From Pseudo-nitzschia pungens (Eukaryota > Bacillariophyta > Bacillariophyceae > Bacillariales > Bacillariaceae), in NCBI GenBank assembly GCA_037355855.1, contig CM074761.1:2623346-2687345 (forward strand): a stretch of DNA of 64,000 nt, given 5' to 3'. The notes below the pieces were generated by a model. That model was not told the DNA's origin, did no database searches, and saw only the letters and a program-made list of their open reading frames with translations. This document shows, piece by piece, positions 15,470 to 24,561 of this stretch. Position 1 is the first letter of the stretch, and every line of letters begins with the position of its first letter. The position numbers and the translations under genes are program-made.

Positions 15470-18356
15470 CTAGTTTGAAATTTCATCATCTTCATCTTCA
15501 TCTTCATCCATGTCGGTCAATTTATCGTAGAATGAAAACACCATGAGAAGCGAGATGGCACACAATAGAGCCATGGGGGCAAACAAACCGTTGAGAAGCA
15601 TGCCCATTCCGAGAGATCCGGCTACGGCGCTGATAAGTACATCCCCAGTGGATCGCGCAAAAGTTCCGGCTTCGGTTGCCAAAAATCCACTGTTGAATGT
15701 GCCTCTCGCCCACGAGGTCGGAATGGTCTTGCTCAACAAGGACATATTCACCCCTTCGAGACCGTTTGTACTCAGAAAAATACCCACCCCAAAAACAACA
15801 TACTGGTAGACCGAGTATGAATCAGGATCATAATCGATCACTCCGAGTACACTTATTAGCATTATTATCAATGCCGCTACGATCAATTCTCGGTCCTCGT
15901 ATTTTTGGCTGAGCTTGGCAACCACGAAATTGACAGGAAACCTATAAAATCAGCGACAACAACACATGTCGGGAGACAAGAAAGTATATCAGAAACCTCC
16001 AAGGAGAAAACTCTGTCGCGGAGAATCAGTCACACAACTTTGATGGAAACCATTGTGCCCTTACATCAACAAAGCGACACAAGCCAGAAAAAGACCGGAT
16101 TGTTTGGAATCCCAGCTGAAGTAGTACTTTCCGATTGTGCTCGTGGATGACATGAGCATTTCTAATACCAATTTCAAAACAAAATACATCCACAATGACA
16201 CCATGACTGCGACATTCTTCCACAATGGGGGCTCCTTGGAGTCACAGACAAACTTTGAACTTGTGTCGATCGTATCCGTTTCCAGATCTCCATTTCTGTA
16301 CGATATCAACGGTTCGGTTTCTCCTTTCTTAATAATATCATCAAAATTTCCATTCGTTACAATCATTTCCATTTTTTGAATAAGTCTTGGCGATAAATGA
16401 CTTGTTGGCTTTCCATAGAGGTGAGAGCGATCGGGTTCTTCAAAGAATGCCACTAACGCAACGACGAAAATCCCCCAAATAACCACCATAATCCAGGCAG
16501 TTGCATTTACATCGGACCAGAATAGGTTCGAAGCATTGAAACTAAGATGACCAACACCGAACGCAGCGGCAGGTCCAGCAGCCATACCAAGAGCCGCATA
16601 CGTAACGAAATCAGCAGAAGCAGCCGTTCGATCTGCTTTGCTGAATACGTCCGCAATGTAACGTCGATTGATCGATCTTGCGCTACCGAAACCGACTAAA
16701 AAGCGTCCGATCAATACCATGTTGATCGAATTGTATCTCAAGGCTAGGGCATAAAATATATTTCCGGAGAAAGAGGAAACTGCTGCAAAAATCAATGGAT
16801 TTCGGTAAGAATAATTCGACCAGAAACCATACAAGACTGTTGCGATGAGTGCGGCATTTGGTGTCATCCCGATAATCTGTTTTGAAAAGCAACTCCGAGC
16901 AATCGAAAGAGGAATGAGAGGACCCAAATCATTTTTGGACAAGCTTCACTCGCATGCAGCTCTGTGCGACACTTACATATCCAGACATGGATTCATCGGA
17001 CCCCAAACGCAGGGCGTAATTTCCGACACTCGGTGCAACGATGTAATAATTCGCCATGTACAAAAAGGTTGACACCAAGTTTAGCATCGAACTCAATTTT
17101 TGAACCGACGTGAATTCCGAAGCCGGAGTTTTCTCGTCGTCGGCCCCATCCTGATCCTTGTCGACAAATATCAGGGCTTGCGCCGCTACTAGTTCCGCGT
17201 ATTTGGACGTTTGCCTAAGACGACTACGCGCGGCATTGATTTGGTCCAATATTGGTTCCCACTGACATGTAATGGTTGTAGAAAGCAAGTGACTTGGTTG
17301 ATTGGCCGAATTCAGAACAAGCATGTGATCGTGGCGATCGTCGTACGTTTCGTGGCGATCCTCGTACGTTTTGTGAGAAGCACTGTCTGACCGAGTCGAT
17401 AGTTCCTGAGACGGTATCGGACATTTGTTGTTGTGCTGTTGCGTGGAATCCATTGCAATCTCGATATCAGCATCCATAGAGTCATACGAAGAAATATGTG
17501 GCATTGACCTACTCCTCCTGCGTCTTTGGTGTTGGCTAGCAGTCTTCGCGGCATCGGTTAACGTTAACAAATGGAGCTCAAGGAAATATAGGTCATCAAA
17601 TGCCCTCCGAAGCGACAGAATGAGTGCTGACAGGCCGCCGAAGTTAAAGAGCCTTTCCAAATGACAATCCTTCATTACTTCGCCATCAATGTCACGATCA
17701 TTTCTACCACCGGCGTGATTCAGGTAGATCCCACTCAGTTGGTTGTGAGGGAAGTTTTTGTCGTGTTTCTTCAATATCTTCCGAAGTCCGGTTAGATTCA
17801 TGTCCACAAAGTTGACGAATTGCAACAAATCTTGAGCAAACGTTCGGTGCCGATCGGTCGAATTTTTGAGATGAGCCCATACGTCCGTTTTGTCCTCTTC
17901 GGATGGCATTGTCTGTGTCCAATCATCCTGGAGGTGTCCCGGCTCTTGCATCAAAGACACGACCTTTCTTTTCAGACTCTGTCCATCCTTGGACATTTCG
18001 AACAAGTGCTCCGCGAGCTGACCTTCTCGAACTATCACAAACAGGACAATCTTTTGGATTTCGTGGTCCAGCATGCGCCGGAATTCCAACTCAGCAACAC
18101 AGCCGTCGGACAGAATATCGTTGATCACGAGGCTCGTGGTGCTTTTCGTTTTGCCACGTATTGGACTCCGCATTCTTGAACTCAATGTCTGGATCAGAGT
18201 GCTGTCATCGGCATGCTGCAATTGCTGCTCTAGCAGGTGTTTATGTTTGGCTTTCACGGCCTTCTTGATGAGTTTTTTCAGAGCCTTGTAATCGATGTAA
18301 TATTCCTTCCACTCGTCAACCTGCGAGGTCAACAACGTCTTTCCGAATTCCACCAT
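15470..18356 (-). CDS. SPX-MFS phosphate transporter (vacuolar type), three exons
   Basis: Exons are 18356-16977, 16876-16065 and 15941-15470, totalling 887 codons. The N-terminus starts Met-Val-Glu-Phe-Gly-Lys and has Tyr-Tyr-Ile-Asp-Tyr-Lys-Ala-Leu-Lys-Lys. Near residue 195 comes Lys-Ile-Leu-Lys-Lys-His-Asp-Lys. These are the SPX signature helices whose Lys residues bind inositol pyrophosphates. From about residue 410 a major-facilitator fold begins (Tyr-Ile-Val-Ala-Pro-Ser), with Gly-Arg-Phe-Leu-Val-Gly-Phe-Gly-Ser-Ala in the next part, a central hydrophilic loop, and a C-terminal helix set with Gly-Thr-Phe-Asn-Ser-Gly-Phe. It ends in an Asp/Glu tail. SPX-MFS proteins load or release vacuolar phosphate according to cell phosphate status. 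Both introns obey GT-AG and restore frame exactly, so I regard the gene as intact. Confidence 0.92.
15942..16064 (-). other. Intron 2 of the SPX-MFS gene (123 bp)
   Basis: The minus-strand donor is GTAAGGGC inside an ATG codon (AT|G) and the acceptor is TTTTATAG. The join reads Leu-Leu-Met-Phe-Pro-Val-Asn-Phe-Val-Val, which is a continuous hydrophobic helix. Confidence 0.85.
16877..16976 (-). other. Intron 1 of the SPX-MFS gene (100 bp)
   Basis: On the minus strand the donor is GTAAGTGTC after Met-Ser-Gly-Tyr, and the acceptor is CAAAACAG before Ile-Ile-Gly-Met-Thr. It is phase 0. Skipping it joins the first MFS helix to the next without a stop. Confidence 0.85.
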
Positions 18357-19431
18357 GATGGATTGGAGCGCAGAGTCGAGGGGAACAATGCGCTTGATTG
18401 ATTGTTACTGCGAGCGATAACAGAAATGACACACTTGTAATCGTCCCTCCCTTTCGAAGACAGAAAGTTCAACAACGTGGGATCACGCGTTGTTTGCCTT
18501 TCCGTTCTCAACAAAAGAAGGGATGTGAAACGTCACAGGTGCTTCTGCAATGCAAATCCCGCAAATACGGTACCGTAGAGATCGACAGGTTGTGCTCAGA
18601 CAATATATATCGATTGAACACCTTACTCGTACACAAATAATACGTAGTAATACGAAGTAAGAATGGCCTAATAATGTGTTGCGAGTACAACATGTAAGGT
18701 ATGTACTTGTACGATTAAGGTTTCTTGTACGTACTTGTATTGTAATCGGATTCAACCTATTTTGGAAATCGAAAATCGGTGCAATCTCAATCTCAAATCG
18801 GAATAACAACACTAATACTAATAATGCGTGATCGACGACGTGGATTCATTTAAATTCGTCTACCGGTAGTGTCGGGCTTTGGTGATTGGCCCTGTCATGA
18901 ATCTTCCCCAAAAACAGGAAGAAACGACATCATGCCAGACAAGTTTTGTGTTATGAAAACCTCTGATTTCAATATTATTAAGCCTTAATCTGTACCGAGT
19001 AAATTATTGCGTGATCGACGACGTCGATTCATTTCAATTCGTCTATTGTCGGACTTTGGTCCTGCCATGAATCTTCCCAAAAAACGGAGAAGAAAACATC
19101 ATGTTGTGTGTCAGATGAAAGCCTCTGATTTCAATACTCTTTACCGAGTACATCACGCAGGTAGTAAATTCTCCCACGTTCAATCTGTGCGAGATTAAAT
19201 GGATACATGACTCTCACAAGAAGTTATGGAACAAGCATCTCCCTCCGTGGCATATCGATCCAAATTATTGTAGACAGAAACATTTAAAAAAACGGAAACA
19301 AACTGTATTTCTTGATATATATATTTAGTTCTTGCACCAGAAAACGATGGTGACCATTTTGGAATGCCAGTCATCGTGTCAACCATGGATGATCGTTGCT
19401 TTGGTATTGTTTCTTGCCTGAGGTAACGCGT
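18357..19431. other. Intergenic region with a tandem duplication
   Basis: No gene is supported. It includes the direct repeat listed at 18822-19180 and several GTACTTGTA/TACGTA-type short motifs. Confidence 0.5.
18822..19180. repeat. Tandem duplication, period about 183 bp, two diverged copies
   Basis: Both copies begin with TGCGTGATCGACGACG (18825 and 19008). Both then contain GATTCATTT, ATGAATCTTCCC, ACATCATG and CCTCTGATTTCAATA in the same order, with small indels. Divergence is clearly more than a few percent, so this is an old non-coding duplication. Confidence 0.8.
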
Positions 19432-22320
19432 CTACTCTTTCCTGATAACGACAGAGTTTCGATAAGGCGCCATTGGATTCTTCAGTCCCATTGTGGCATG
19501 ATCAAACACCTCGGCATTGGAAAGGCGTTTCCAAAAGGAAGAAGAAATGAACAAATGGTTCGAAGGATTCTTGTGGGTGCGTCTGCGAATGCAATCTGCT
19601 ATACCCTTCCTTTCCATATCATTGTTTTCAGAAATCAAGATCACGCCACCGTTTTTTGTGATTCGAATCAGCTCATTGATGGATTGCTCCACATGTTCTT
19701 CATCATTCAAGTATGGAGTCACTCCAAACATAAACGAAAAATCTTTTGAGGCATCGGGGACGCGCGACAAGTCACTTGCATCTCCCACCCAGAAGCTTCC
19801 ATTCTCCAAGCGGCGATTGGCAATATCCACACAACCTGATGCTTGATCACATCCTTCCGATTCTTTGCAACCGTAGAGGCGACCCAGTGAATCGAGGAAG
19901 GCGCCGGCTCCGCATCCGCTTTCGAATATTTTTGTTGACGAGTTGAGGTTCGTGATACCGCAACCCTCAAGCAACAGTCTCACTTGGTTGTCCCATTCTT
20001 CTTGAGAAAACATATTGTAGCCTCCAATATGGTGCAAAGGAGTATCGAGCATTGCATTTGATGCAATTCGGTTGTAGATACGCCTCCATTCTGTAGCGCG
20101 TTGCTTGATGGAATTCCGAATAATGGATCCAACAGTATACTGATAAAGCCAAATACCATCTGCGCGTCGGGTGCATCCTGGTTCACCGCCTGTCTCTTTA
20201 CTGGGCTGTAGGCCAGCTCCAAGTCCGAAAGCATAGATTTGATGATCCTGGAAATAAACGACCGTCGGAACTTACAGAAGTCCCAGACCATTCCGAGTTG
20301 GGGCACAGTTCCATCCCATTCCGATCGAACATTGGAACAGTCTTCATTCGAAAACCACATGCAACAATGATGTGGTCATAGTCATCTGGATTTAGAACAT
20401 TCGACGTCTGATACGAATCTTTCGTCAGAGCAAATGTGCGAGCATCACCTCGCAAACCGCCAAAGCGATGAACCCGGCCGGTATCGGGATCTACATCAGA
20501 GTTTTCGAAGACATAATTACATTGATTGGCTGCGTCCGTGGAAGGAAAGTATATCCGAGGCTGCGTTCTGGTTGAAGATGGCTGCTTAATGTACGTAATG
20601 ACGGACGATGGATGACGAGTTCGCAGCAGATGACCAATCGAAAACGCAGAGTGTGAAAATCCAATGACAGCGATTCTGGGCCCCTTCAGCTCTAGATTGC
20701 TGCCGTTGAAGTAATCAAGAGCCGATTCGAGTCGTTTCGCATCACAAGCTCCATGCAGCCACTCTGGTACATATGGGATTCCACCAGCACAAAGACAGAT
20801 ATTATTTGCCTACAACTTCGCGGACAGAGCACTCCGTAGCGTCAGATTTTTTCTCCGTCGAGTAACGAATCGAGTACAGCCCGTTTGCCATTTCGGTGAC
20901 ATCAAGTACCGTGGCATTGCTGATCGATCTTGAGATTGGGTGCTGAGAGAGTCGTTGATTGTGCCAGGATCCAATGGTGACCTGAAGTTTTTGCATATCC
21001 TCCATTGGAATCTCGGTGGCGACGTTGAGATCCTTGTCATGGGTTTCAATGTCCAGGGCAGTAATGGCATCAAAGAATGCGCAGCCATGCGAGTTGGAGC
21101 GCAAATTGGAATAGTTGCAAAGTGATCCACCACCAAGGTTTTGTGACGAATCGAATATGGCTACTCCACGATCCAAAAGCTCTTCGTATTCGTCGTTTAA
21201 AGCATAGTTGGTTAATAGACCACATCCTGCGGGACCTCCACCAATGATAGCTAGGTGAAGGACTTCGTTTTTGCGGTACATTGCATTGAAGCGAGTACTT
21301 CCTCCCCACCAAGGGTCCGAGATCACAAATCCATCGAGTTCTTTCCTTTCGGAGAATTCGCTCTTCTGGAACAAACAGTGAGCAAAAGTACCTGGAAGGA
21401 CGTACTTGTCGGGTCTGTAGGAATGTTGAGCGCTGCGAAGATCGCCCAAAAACACAGTTTTCCGTGCCACACGCTGCATTTCCTTCATGGCTTGAATCGC
21501 TGCTGGCTTGCCTGGCATGTATTCCAACATGGAATGGGAAATGACATGATCAAAAGATCCATCTTTGAATGGCAAGACTGTCGCGTCTTGGACAACAACA
21601 ACTCGGCCGGAACGTTGGATGAAGTTGTCCGCCTGAGATTGTGACTTTTCGAGTCCGACATAGCCCTTCGAAGGCAAATAGTCCCCCAAAAATCCGGCAC
21701 CACAGCCCACGTCTAGGACCGTCTCGCCCTCTTTCCATTGAACTGCTTTCTGCCAGCGATCGGCAAATATCTCTGGTTCAAAATCGGTTTCGTCGAAACC
21801 CGTCAAAAGACGAGTGTTCGAGGAATCATTGACCCGGCCTTTGGTTTCCCAGACTTTATCCCAGCCTGGGATCTCGCATACTTGGGTTCCAGGATCAAAG
21901 TTAATGGTATGAAAAATACCAAGAGCGATAGGAACTGCGAATCGCTTTTTGGAATCATAGGTGATGCTCACAAACGGTTTCGTTTTGTGTGGTGTCCGAA
22001 GGAACCAAGTGGTAAACAGCATCAATATTCTGGTCCTTGATGAAGGATTCGGTAAGAACCGATGGCGCAGGATTATCAACCGAAGCCACAGATTTCAAGC
22101 TAGAAAGAAGGCTTGCACGTTGATCTAAAGTATATTTCGTGGAGTCATTCTTTGAACTATTTGGGGCGGCACAGTCATTGTCATCCACATTTTCATCGGC
22201 ATCCAGAATGCCGACAATGAGCTCAACCTCAGCATCGTCATCATTGGATGCAAGAGTATCCAAACGATCTAAGAGCCCAATCGGGAAGGATCCAAATTCA
22301 GCAACGCAGTATATCTTCAT
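19432..22320 (-). pseudogene. Fusion of cytidylyltransferase-like, methyltransferase, flavin monooxygenase and methyltransferase domains
   Basis: Reading minus from ATG 22320: (1) residues 1-115 look like a nucleotidyltransferase-type Rossmann domain. It ends with the family-like block Gln-Arg-Ala-Ser-Leu-Leu, Val-Ala-Ser-Val, Leu-Thr-Glu-Ser-Phe-Ile-Lys, Ile-Asp-Ala-Val-Tyr, but the HxGH motif is replaced by Phe-Pro-Ile-Gly-Leu. (2) A SAM methyltransferase has Val-Leu-Asp-Val-Gly-Cys-Gly-Ala-Gly and Asp-His-Val-Ile-Ser-His-Ser. (3) A flavin oxidoreductase has Ala-Ile-Ile-Gly-Gly-Gly-Pro-Ala-Gly for FAD and Ala-Val-Ile-Gly-Phe-Ser-His-Ser-Ala for NAD(P). (4) A second methyltransferase has Phe-Glu-Ser-Gly-Cys-Gly-Ala-Gly. 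Frame breaks lie at about 21970 and 20808 (one extra base each), plus a 28-nt stretch at 20248-20275. Removing these gives one 952-residue frame. It could be a decayed gene or an intact gene with sequencing errors. The product is unknown. Confidence 0.72.
20248..20275 (-). other. Possible 28-nt intron
   Basis: On the minus strand the stretch begins GTAAGTTCC and ends TTTATTTCCAG. Removing exactly 28 nt joins Trp-Ser-Gly-Thr-Ser to Asp-His-Gln-Ile-Tyr-Ala-Phe-Gly-Leu-Gly, which reads as the end of the flavoprotein domain and leads in frame into the second methyltransferase. The splice-site sequences match consensus, but the length is far below the 100-171 bp introns elsewhere in this window. 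A plain indel is therefore possible. Confidence 0.45.
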
Positions 22321-22345: not shown

Positions 22346-23313
22346 TTGTTGGTAGTGGGCTCGGTTCACCTTGAATCCAGGATATGGGACACGGAATTTC
22401 TTATTATGTCCGTGGGTTGGAGATAATTTTCTAAATCGCGATTCAAGCAAAATTTATTTCGTGTTCGTAGTACATTTTCTACGTCTGAGTACGGTAAACG
22501 TTCAGTTCATCGGAACGCAAACGTCTCGGTCAAAGTAAGTCTTAGTTGTACACATTCGTTGAATCAAACATTTTTGTCTAATGTTCTCTCGAATGGAAAT
22601 CAAACTCAACCTAGATTTTTACTTATTGTTTTCCTCCGAACGATGTCACCCTTTAATTGACTTTGCAGACACACAGGACACTTAACCACACCGCATCGAC
22701 TATTCGTAGAAGTAGTAAGGTTAGCTTAAGTTTGAACCTAGAAGATTTCGAACTCAGAAATCGACTTAGTTCGTCCCCATATAAGTCTGTAATTAGTACC
22801 GTTGCTATACGAAGTATTATTTAAGGGTCTCTCTTTGTCTTCGGAGGAGATACAAGCAATAATTATTCGTTTCTTCGTAGATCTTACCGTAATCTTACTT
22901 CACACCAGAAATTTTCTTTTATCAATCAATAACCTTACTCGTATTCTCCAGTCATTATGATGTGAAATATCCTCACTGTAACACTTCAGAAAGCGAGGCC
23001 TGTTGAAAGTGAGCATGTACTGTATGTCTTCAAGATGCCTCTATTCTTACGTTAGGGTTACGATCGTGTAAGGTTACTTCTCCTTTCATCTGTTTGTACG
23101 GTAACTTTCGTATCCCGGCAAAGGTAACTAAAAGTTTACCGTATGTACGGTAGATTTACCTTCCCTTTCTTCACACCAAAAAAATCTTTATTAATACCGT
23201 ACTCGTATTCTTCAGTCGATTACTGTGACGATGACCATCATGCACAACATATTTTCCGAATCTAACAACCAAGAGGAACGACAAACAGCCAACGCAAACA
23301 CCGATTGACCAAA
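22346..23313. other. Intergenic region between divergent genes
   Basis: About 1 kb between the fusion gene (minus) and the nucleotide-sugar transporter (plus), so it should hold both promoters. No TATA box can be asserted. It is rich in GTAAGGTTA-type motifs (22715, 23068), TACGAAGTA-like and TACGGTA-like pieces. Confidence 0.5.
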
Positions 23314-24561
23314 ATGGGTAGACTAAGAGACGAATCAAAGACAATGGATAGTCTCAAAAGCCGTTCTGAAACGACGGAAACAAAGACACCCAAAATTCTG
23401 ATCAAAATCTTAATGGGATGTTACGTTTTGTTGTGGGTCGTCCACTACATGCTTGTTCACGCAAGTGCTCATCCGCGATACAGACATCTTTCGAAGGGAA
23501 AACTGAACCAGCCCTTTGTCATAATGATGACAGAACTCTCCAAGCTCTTGATCTCGGCAGGCATATTTTTGGCGCAGAAATTTCTCGAGAAGAATGAAAC
23601 TGGCACAAATAAAACTGATGACTCTATTGTTCAAACGTTCCAGTTCGGACCGGTACTCACCCTTTTCAAGCAGTATCTTCCTGTCGCATTTCTCTATTCA
23701 CTGGGAAATAACCTCATGCTCAACAACTTACAGCACTATGAGCCAACGATATATCTCATTCTGGCGTCTTCGAGGCTAATAATGACGGCAGTGCTCATGA
23801 GGATTTTTTTGGAAAAAAAAATTTCCCAAATGCAGAAGATCGCTATTCTGATTATTACACTCGGGCTGTTACTTCAAGACTCTTCGTCCTCCGAGGAAGC
23901 GGGCGAAAACCAGGGTATATGGGCGAGCTTGTCACACCTAGGTTTGATCCTTCTTCAGATGCTTTGTGGAACGCTTGCATCAATTTACAACGAAAAACTC
24001 TTGAAAAACAGGAACAAAGGAGGGGATGGCAACTTCAAGCCCATAACAAGTGTTTTTGCGGCAAACATATGCCTCTATGTCGAGTCTATTCTTCTAAATG
24101 GGTTGGCCTTCATGCTCATGTCACATGAATCCGCGGACTCGGCAAGGGCTAAGATGAATTTGTTTCTCTCAGATCATCTTCAACAGGGCATTATCTTGAC
24201 ATTGGCACTCGTTGGCATTATCACGTCGTTCATCATCTGCCACGTTGACTCTTTATCGAAAGCCGTTGCCTCTGCGAGCACTGTCGTATTCACAACAACA
24301 TTGGGCTACATCCTTTTCGATTACGAGATTTCTATGCGAATTGCATTCTCCAGCATTCTAGTCAGTGTCGGTGTTCACTCGTATGCATTTTCCAATACCG
24401 CAGACGAGAACATGACTTTGGGTGTCGTTTTCCTTTCCTTGAAAGACACTCTAGTTCAGCTGTGGTTTATTCCAGTTTTTTTTTGGGTCTTCAACACGAT
24501 CCAATATTCAAGACTTGTGTTAGATGCTCAACAAAACATTACGAACTACCGGAAAGGGTAA
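23314..24561 (+). CDS. Nucleotide-sugar transporter, SLC35A-like
   Basis: I start at ATG 23314; the open frame nine bases upstream begins with TTG. The 415-codon protein has about ten hydrophobic helices and the hallmarks of the UDP-galactose/CMP-sialic acid type transporter family. A Pro-Phe-Val-Ile-Met-Met-Thr-Glu-Leu-Ser-Lys-Leu helix is followed by Leu-Tyr-Ser-Leu-Gly-Asn-Asn-Leu. Then come Asn-Leu-Gln-His-Tyr-Glu-Pro-Thr, Tyr-Asn-Glu-Lys-Leu-Leu-Lys and Ser-Leu-Ser-Lys-Ala-Val-Ala-Ser-Ala in the expected order. These proteins exchange nucleotide sugars for nucleoside monophosphate across the Golgi membrane. Substrate cannot be assigned. The C-terminus carries an extra hydrophobic segment before the stop. 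The next ORF begins two bases after the stop, so a missed 3' exon is possible. Confidence 0.85.
   Translation: MGRLRDESKTMDSLKSRSETTETKTPKILIKILMGCYVLLWVVHYMLVHASAHPRYRHLSKGKLNQPFVIMMTELSKLLISAGIFLAQKFLEKNETGTNKTDDSIVQTFQFGPVLTLFKQYLPVAFLYSLGNNLMLNNLQHYEPTIYLILASSRLIMTAVLMRIFLEKKISQMQKIAILIITLGLLLQDSSSSEEAGENQGIWASLSHLGLILLQMLCGTLASIYNEKLLKNRNKGGDGNFKPITSVFAANICLYVESILLNGLAFMLMSHESADSARAKMNLFLSDHLQQGIILTLALVGIITSFIICHVDSLSKAVASASTVVFTTTLGYILFDYEISMRIAFSSILVSVGVHSYAFSNTADENMTLGVVFLSLKDTLVQLWFIPVFFWVFNTIQYSRLVLDAQQNITNYRKG

Follow-up and report, generated by a model that had tools for sequence, protein, structure and literature searches.

The gene analysed here lies on the minus strand of a 64,000-nucleotide stretch of Pseudo-nitzschia pungens DNA (GenBank assembly GCA_037355855.1, contig CM074761.1, positions 2,623,346 to 2,687,345), hereafter the window, where it runs from an ATG at 22320 to a stop at 19432 as four open segments in changing frames, joined across three frame breaks. 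From its N-terminus it encodes a cytidylyltransferase-family domain of the choline/ethanolamine-phosphate type, with a degenerate catalytic motif (CT, 21867..22320, placed by alignment with relatives), a class I S-adenosylmethionine (SAM) methyltransferase domain (MT1, 21261..21866), a flavin adenine dinucleotide (FAD)/NAD(P)H monooxygenase domain, of N-hydroxylase type by sequence profile (FMO, 20068..21260), and a second class I SAM methyltransferase domain (MT2, 19435..20067). The motifs named in an earlier note on this DNA were all found in place on the minus strand; these are SAM motif I of MT1 (Asp-Val-Gly-Cys-Gly-Ala-Gly, 21693..21713), the FAD motif (Gly-Gly-Gly-Pro-Ala-Gly, 21225..21242) and NAD(P) motif (Gly-Phe-Ser-His-Ser, 20648..20662) of the FMO, and SAM motif I of MT2 (Glu-Ser-Gly-Cys-Gly-Ala-Gly, 19903..19923). 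The only match to the MT1-FMO piece in the 66.9 Mb, 28-contig genome was the focal gene itself.

The read-through of the four segments was used as a query against a database of 5.8 billion proteins and matched 11 relatives (P0001 to P0011), seven of which (P0001-P0005, P0008 and P0009) are uninterrupted, cover 100% of the query and have the same domain order, with identities of 84, 73, 71, 62, 58, 49 and 48% and E values from 0.0 to 1e-286. Seven intact full-length matches with such E values exclude chance, and their shared, uninterrupted domain order means that the fusion is real, so the four-domain CT-MT1-FMO-MT2 fusion is a genuine single protein in these relatives. This supports the claim of the earlier note that a single polypeptide carries, in this order, a nucleotidyltransferase-like block, a methyltransferase, a flavin monooxygenase and a methyltransferase, and is the opposite of the outcome that would have spoken against it. 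That note had also called the product a tailoring enzyme, of which the fusion is now established, while the tailoring role is suggested by the domain families and by bacterial gene neighbourhoods (below). No description of the four-domain architecture was found in the open-licence literature searched.

The other four relatives (P0006, P0007, P0010 and P0011) are shorter, and shorter proteins consisting of CT-MT1 alone or of FMO alone also occur, and these could be either truncated parts of the fusion (P0047, for one, terminates inside the start of the FMO) or real shorter proteins. One shorter protein with the CT-MT1 part, P0050, comes from the diatom Eucampia antarctica. P0009 has an additional N-terminal part (residues 1-240) ahead of the CT, with a weak Pyr_redox match at residues 6-62, and the predicted structure model of P0001 has a mean pLDDT (predicted local distance difference test score) of 71.3. 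Viral relatives of the whole protein were not found, none of 18 pattern-matching viral stretches encoding one.

The frame breaks, placed from the reading frames and the alignment, lie close to the end of the CT (break 1, 21957..21979) and within the FMO (break 2, 20805..20809, and break 3, 20247..20275); an intron-like GTAAGT...CAG is present at break 3, in a stretch that aligns to coding sequence of the relatives. The joined window protein, which was assembled by hand with the residues at the very joins chosen by us, aligned without a gap at each break to its nearest intact relative, P0001, and this makes the breaks unlike introns or gene borders; break 1 falls in a loop that varies in length among more distant relatives. 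Introns were rejected as their cause on these grounds, and the pattern is unlike that of the neighbouring SPX-transporter gene, where a likely GTAAGT intron lies between the two frames. Programmed frameshifting at stop codons, judged by eye, was also rejected, as the switch of frame at break 3 comes well ahead of the following stop and the explanation does not fit all three breaks.

Three frame breaks in 2.9 kb, when several genes of the same assembly are unbroken (four HSP70 matches run unbroken over 595 of 599 positions), could be explained if the gene were a young pseudogene in this species, with a working enzyme only in relatives, but we consider this rather improbable. The expected frame is the only one free of stops in each of the four segments (0 stops against 4 to 14 in the other frames). 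Among 777 alignment columns in which P0002 and P0003 agree, 25 changes were confined to the window protein and 41 to P0001, with both differing in 103, and in the 255 columns in which the remaining relatives present agree, the corresponding counts were 3, 4 and 2. Terminal branches gave a similar picture (0.064 for the window protein against 0.10 for P0001 in the CT-MT1 tree, and 0.066 against 0.079 in the FMO tree), so that the window protein evolves no faster than P0001, which would not be expected after a long drift with three frame changes. An HSP70 gene on contig C11 (2400500-2402500) served as a control: its recognisable sequence is split over three frames, broken in the same manner as the focal gene, although that copy could itself be decaying; this suggests that assembly errors are present in the genome. 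A silicon-transporter match on contig C6 shifts frame inside an overlap and also holds one stop. An HSP70-like run on contig C5 has several internal stops, indicating that real decay has a different look in this genome. Judged from these comparisons, the three breaks are best taken as assembly errors or, failing that, as defects of very recent origin. They are present in the assembled sequence but probably absent from the living gene, which partly answers the worry over integrity raised in the earlier note.

The Pfam scan was run on each of the four open segments separately, and the N-terminal piece of the window protein fell below the cut-off for CTP_transf_like (E 0.11, 13.1 bits, cut-off 21). 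Residues 1-146 of P0008, however, matched ethanolamine-phosphate cytidylyltransferase (ECT; 3elb, 8e-27) and choline-phosphate cytidylyltransferase (CCT; 4zcp, 2.3e-23), and it is through relatives such as this one, rather than through the window piece alone, that the CT can be said to belong to the choline/ethanolamine-phosphate cytidylyltransferase family (PF01467). The earlier note had likened this block to the last strand and helix of a nucleotidyltransferase fold; relatives with an intact motif show that it is a whole domain of about 140 residues. The HxGH catalytic motif is intact in P0005, P0008 and P0009, as in ECT and CCT, but the focal CT differs from those enzymes in being fused to tailoring enzymes and in having lost HxGH, along with the rest of its clade. 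At the motif site (22273..22284) both histidines are replaced in the window protein, and HxGH is likewise absent in P0001-P0003, P0006, P0050 and P0051, while P0004 has kept both histidines but not the glycine. The arginine of the RTxGxST motif, which we take to be a signature of the cytidylyltransferase family, is replaced in P0008.

Of the 28 rows of a CT-MT1 tree, 10 were counted as having no HxGH, of which P0007 is without the region and P0052 has an N-terminus that by eye is unlike the others at that place; the other eight, including the window protein and the Eucampia protein, form one clade (support 100/97). The CT is also the least conserved part between the window protein and P0001 (78% identity, compared to 87, 87 and 88% for the other three domains). 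Taken together, the single clade and the low conservation suggest that the activating step was probably lost once from the fusion protein, in an ancestor of several species, with the domain being retained. A clade in which the motif was lost but the domain kept offers a ready test of the CT as a binding or structural part.

CT-MT1 matches were found at eight loci on viral contigs, at four of which (L040, L041, L043 and L045) the frames were read: the first three have an MT1-like gene amid epimerase and other sugar-nucleotide-type genes (by eye), and L045 has a CT-like gene. No HxGH-type or FMO motif was seen in frames of at least 150 residues at six of the eight loci (L040-L044 and L047). On plasmids, CT-MT1 matches came from 4 records, each covering less than half of the query and the methyltransferase part only.

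Both MT1 and MT2 have motif I together with a Methyltransf_11 match (Pfam, 1.6e-13 and 5.2e-10 respectively) and hence qualify as class I SAM methyltransferases. The FMO has the glycine-rich FAD and NAD(P) motifs and the profile match of an N-hydroxylating monooxygenase, scoring just above the cut-off for Lys_Orn_oxgnase (PF13434, 1.1e-4, 21.9 bits, cut-off 21.3), and its family profile matched KtzI (1.8e-6) and SidA (6.2e-6), the flavoproteins that came next reaching 0.003 at best. By sequence profile the FMO is therefore nearest to the amine N-hydroxylases, but it differs from SidA, KtzI, PvdA and DfoA in being fused, and is only 10-16% identical to them in structural alignment. As the fold list covers almost solely the FMO region, the assignments of the other domains are from sequence only. 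Among 47 PDB matches of the FMO profile (E up to 10), no chain named FrbG was found, judging by name. Fused-type and bacterial FMO sequences fall on opposite sides of one tree branch (20 and 21 rows, support 100/100), the former side being one that we label "algal" ourselves.

Bacterial relatives of the FMO were sought with a prokaryote genome scan that used FMO patterns alone, relatives of the other domains being beyond its reach, and which yielded three (two from Streptomyces and one from a Kutzneria metagenome-assembled genome). At all three loci (L002, L003 and L004) the next gene encodes NTP_transf_3 and Aminotran_1_2 domains in one protein, and for the second domain in L002 the best NCBIfam family was threonine-phosphate decarboxylase CobD (1e-53, below the family cut-off). 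Further along, two of these loci carry an AAC(3)-like acetyltransferase domain in the third gene (linked in L002 to an FkbH domain) and a MaoC/short-chain dehydrogenase (SDR) protein in the fourth; the S. hydrogenans locus has AMP-binding and condensation domains in those positions. Within the Streptomyces order, FMO matches at E 1e-20 or better were present in at least 3 of 293 genomes (one strong and two weak, a lower bound with up to six candidates scored per genome).

FMO relatives were also found in 8 of 72,556 plasmid records, of which 5 were viewed. On plasmids of Erwinia rhapontici and Rahnella sikkimica the FMO is accompanied by a 620-codon gene for a pyridoxal-phosphate (PLP) enzyme, which is followed by genes for a CDP-alcohol phosphatidyltransferase, a haloacid dehalogenase (HAD) hydrolase and a HAD-IIIC protein, among others; Pfam confirmed the nucleotidyltransferase plus Aminotran_1_2 and the CDP-OH_P_transf domain in Erwinia, while the Rahnella order is from annotation and size. 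The halves of the Erwinia didomain protein matched LicC, a CTP:phosphocholine cytidylyltransferase (1.6e-14), and a threonine-phosphate-decarboxylase-like enzyme (5e-32), with histidinol-phosphate aminotransferase near the latter (2.5e-29). Plasmids of Granulicella and Sphingomonas have the FMO fused to a DegT-type aminotransferase and adjoining glycosyltransferase genes; the fusions with this sugar-type aminotransferase at L032 (8007-10706) and L034 (6828-9317) have opposite domain orders, and they are perhaps involved in the N-oxidation of nucleotide-linked amino sugars. P0040 is a further fusion, in which an ATP-grasp domain precedes a domain related to the bacterial flavin domain.

Coupling of a cytidylyltransferase to the flavin enzyme thus takes two forms, being a fusion in the relatives with an intact motif and a nucleotidyltransferase/PLP didomain gene beside the FMO in five of the eight bacterial neighbourhoods viewed. 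We know of no methyltransferase partner of the FrbG/FrbH pair of Streptomyces rubellomurinus, a known system that this arrangement resembles in its logic. For FR-900098 biosynthesis, FrbG is described as hydroxylating an aminopropylphosphonate that is conjugated to CMP, a moiety on which its substrate specificity crucially depends (PMC7347517), and FrbH as a cytidylyltransferase-decarboxylase fusion (PMC8976061), so that there also a flavin N-hydroxylase works with a cytidylyltransferase on an amine held as its CMP conjugate, and several bacterial FMO relatives adjoin a gene of FrbH-like make-up. Unlike the focal protein, FrbG and FrbH are separate proteins with a PF12804-type cytidylyltransferase and a phosphonate substrate. 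Nucleotidyl activation through PF12804 and PF01467 enzymes is described as common in bacterial phosphonate pathways, and Fom1 of fosfomycin biosynthesis is similar to the focal protein in that a cytidylyltransferase domain is fused to another pathway enzyme and the product is tied to CMP, but the fusion is to a phosphoenolpyruvate (PEP) mutase and the substrate is a phosphonate (PMC6697681).

We favour, at somewhat less than even confidence, a role for the fusion in the N-oxygenation and methylation of an ethanolamine-type phosphobase that was, at least ancestrally, tethered to CMP; here the domain order, the single polypeptide in relatives, the loss of the motif in one clade and the family assignments are observed, and the substrate, product, order of steps and partner are our proposal. 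The proposed role of the CT, ancestrally and probably still in relatives whose HxGH is intact, is to couple CTP to a small phosphobase such as ethanolamine phosphate or a close analogue. With the base held on CMP, the FMO would oxidise its amine nitrogen, and MT1 and MT2 would methylate the nitrogen and/or the oxygen so introduced. This would yield a CDP-bound headgroup, N-oxygenated and methylated, that could be passed on to a lipid or glycan. As the catalytic histidines of the CT are lost in the window lineage, activation there would occur in trans (for example by the LicD-cytidylyltransferase fusion encoded on contig C2 or by housekeeping enzymes) or would no longer be needed. The occurrence of CT-MT1 fusions that have no FMO also counts in favour of this proposal. 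Two observations weigh against it: the fold comparison ties N-hydroxylases with other flavin monooxygenases, which lowers our confidence, and the FMO of Shinella sits among non-ribosomal peptide synthetase and polyketide synthase genes, which does not fit with a nucleotide tether.

A possible partner is encoded on contig C2 (L022 79-3252, at about 610-613 kb) by a frame of 1058 residues with a LicD-like match of 17.5 bits (below the cut-off of 22.6), a CT with an intact motif (1.9e-16) and a long C-terminal part without a Pfam match, which by eye is 2-oxoglutarate oxygenase-like. Apart from the focal gene, nothing in the genome matched a CT-MT1 protein better than this CT (40% identity over query residues 3-130), and P0066, a LicD-CT protein from another source, is above the LicD cut-off (26.0 compared to 22.6). 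Such LicD-CT fusions (P0066 and the diatom locus at about 611 kb) resemble the focal protein in their CT, that on C2 being closer to the CT-MT1 family than any other in this genome except the focal one, but they have a LicD-type part in place of the methyltransferases and FMO and, in the diatom, the C-terminal region mentioned above. The C2 protein is a lead for an enzyme that might both activate the base and transfer it in lineages where the CT of the fusion is inactive.

In its widest form the proposal is speculative and, as a whole, doubtful: diatoms and probably other algae would have a Kennedy-pathway-like, one-protein assembly line for turning a CMP-tethered ethanolamine-type base, through N-oxygenation and methylation, into an undescribed N-O lipid or glycan headgroup, and in one diatom-containing clade the CT would be a dead carrier, with a LicD-cytidylyltransferase fusion activating or transferring the base. 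To our knowledge nucleotide-tethered N-hydroxylation is known only from bacterial phosphonate pathways, and if the proposal is true a eukaryote performs it, a single gene being responsible for an N-oxygenated headgroup predicted in diatoms. The authors of a 2019 article stated that they knew of no cytidylyl activation in the biosynthesis of natural products other than small-molecule phosphonates (PMC6697681).

Among other chemistries, an unlikely one, though the least so of those considered here, is a choline-type branch in which the methyltransferases act as phosphobase N-methyltransferases and the FMO either forms an N-oxide of the amine or takes off a methyl group, so that the product is a choline-like CDP base and not a hydroxylamine. 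The best row for MT1 came from the comparison with phosphoethanolamine N-methyltransferase (1.8e-6), but this match is generic, as an 18S rRNA methyltransferase is close behind (3.1e-6) and the family profile of MT1 places the plant enzyme, at 2.6e-4, below many others. The FMO profile is nearer to the N-hydroxylases, and ECT- and CCT-like genes, recognised by eye from their motifs, are present elsewhere in the genome. Phosphatidylsulfocholine occurs in diatoms, and the fusion might instead belong to a sulfonium headgroup pathway for lipids of this kind, with the methyltransferases methylating and the FMO oxidising sulfur. The lipid is named three times in a review of diatom metabolites (PMC4483651), but the focal protein has no sulfur-specific domain, its FMO profile is nearest to enzymes acting on amines, and several bacterial FMO relatives adjoin a PLP enzyme gene that is a possible source of an amine, so we regard this pathway as very unlikely.

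Slightly less probable again is a phosphonate pathway acting on 2-aminoethylphosphonate or a relative of it, as in FR-900098 biosynthesis, despite the resemblance to the logic of FrbG/FrbH and the additional match of the P0008 CT to 5x3d (2.9e-10), which we take to be the Fom1 cytidylyltransferase domain. PEP mutase was above its family cut-off neither in the one diatom genome nor in any of five bacterial genomes with an FMO match, and the EDKxxxxxNS motif was absent in 10 of the 11 sub-threshold matches, those 10 having been inspected as loci, which makes a home-made phosphonate substrate unlikely; a phosphonate taken up from outside is possible.

The focal gene has a divergent neighbour on the plus strand, a nucleotide-sugar transporter gene (window 23266-24558, PF04142, 2.3e-22). 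On the minus strand, at window 16064-18404, lies the SPX-transporter gene mentioned above, in which an SPX domain and the likely intron are followed by a sugar-transporter-type domain, making up an SPX-major facilitator superfamily (MFS) transporter gene. Elsewhere in the genome, the silicon-transporter family (PF03842) has 11 matches, the best at 4.1e-232, which mark the genome as that of a diatom, and a single frame of 1696 residues at C3:7803825-7808126 holds several silicon-transporter matches in tandem.

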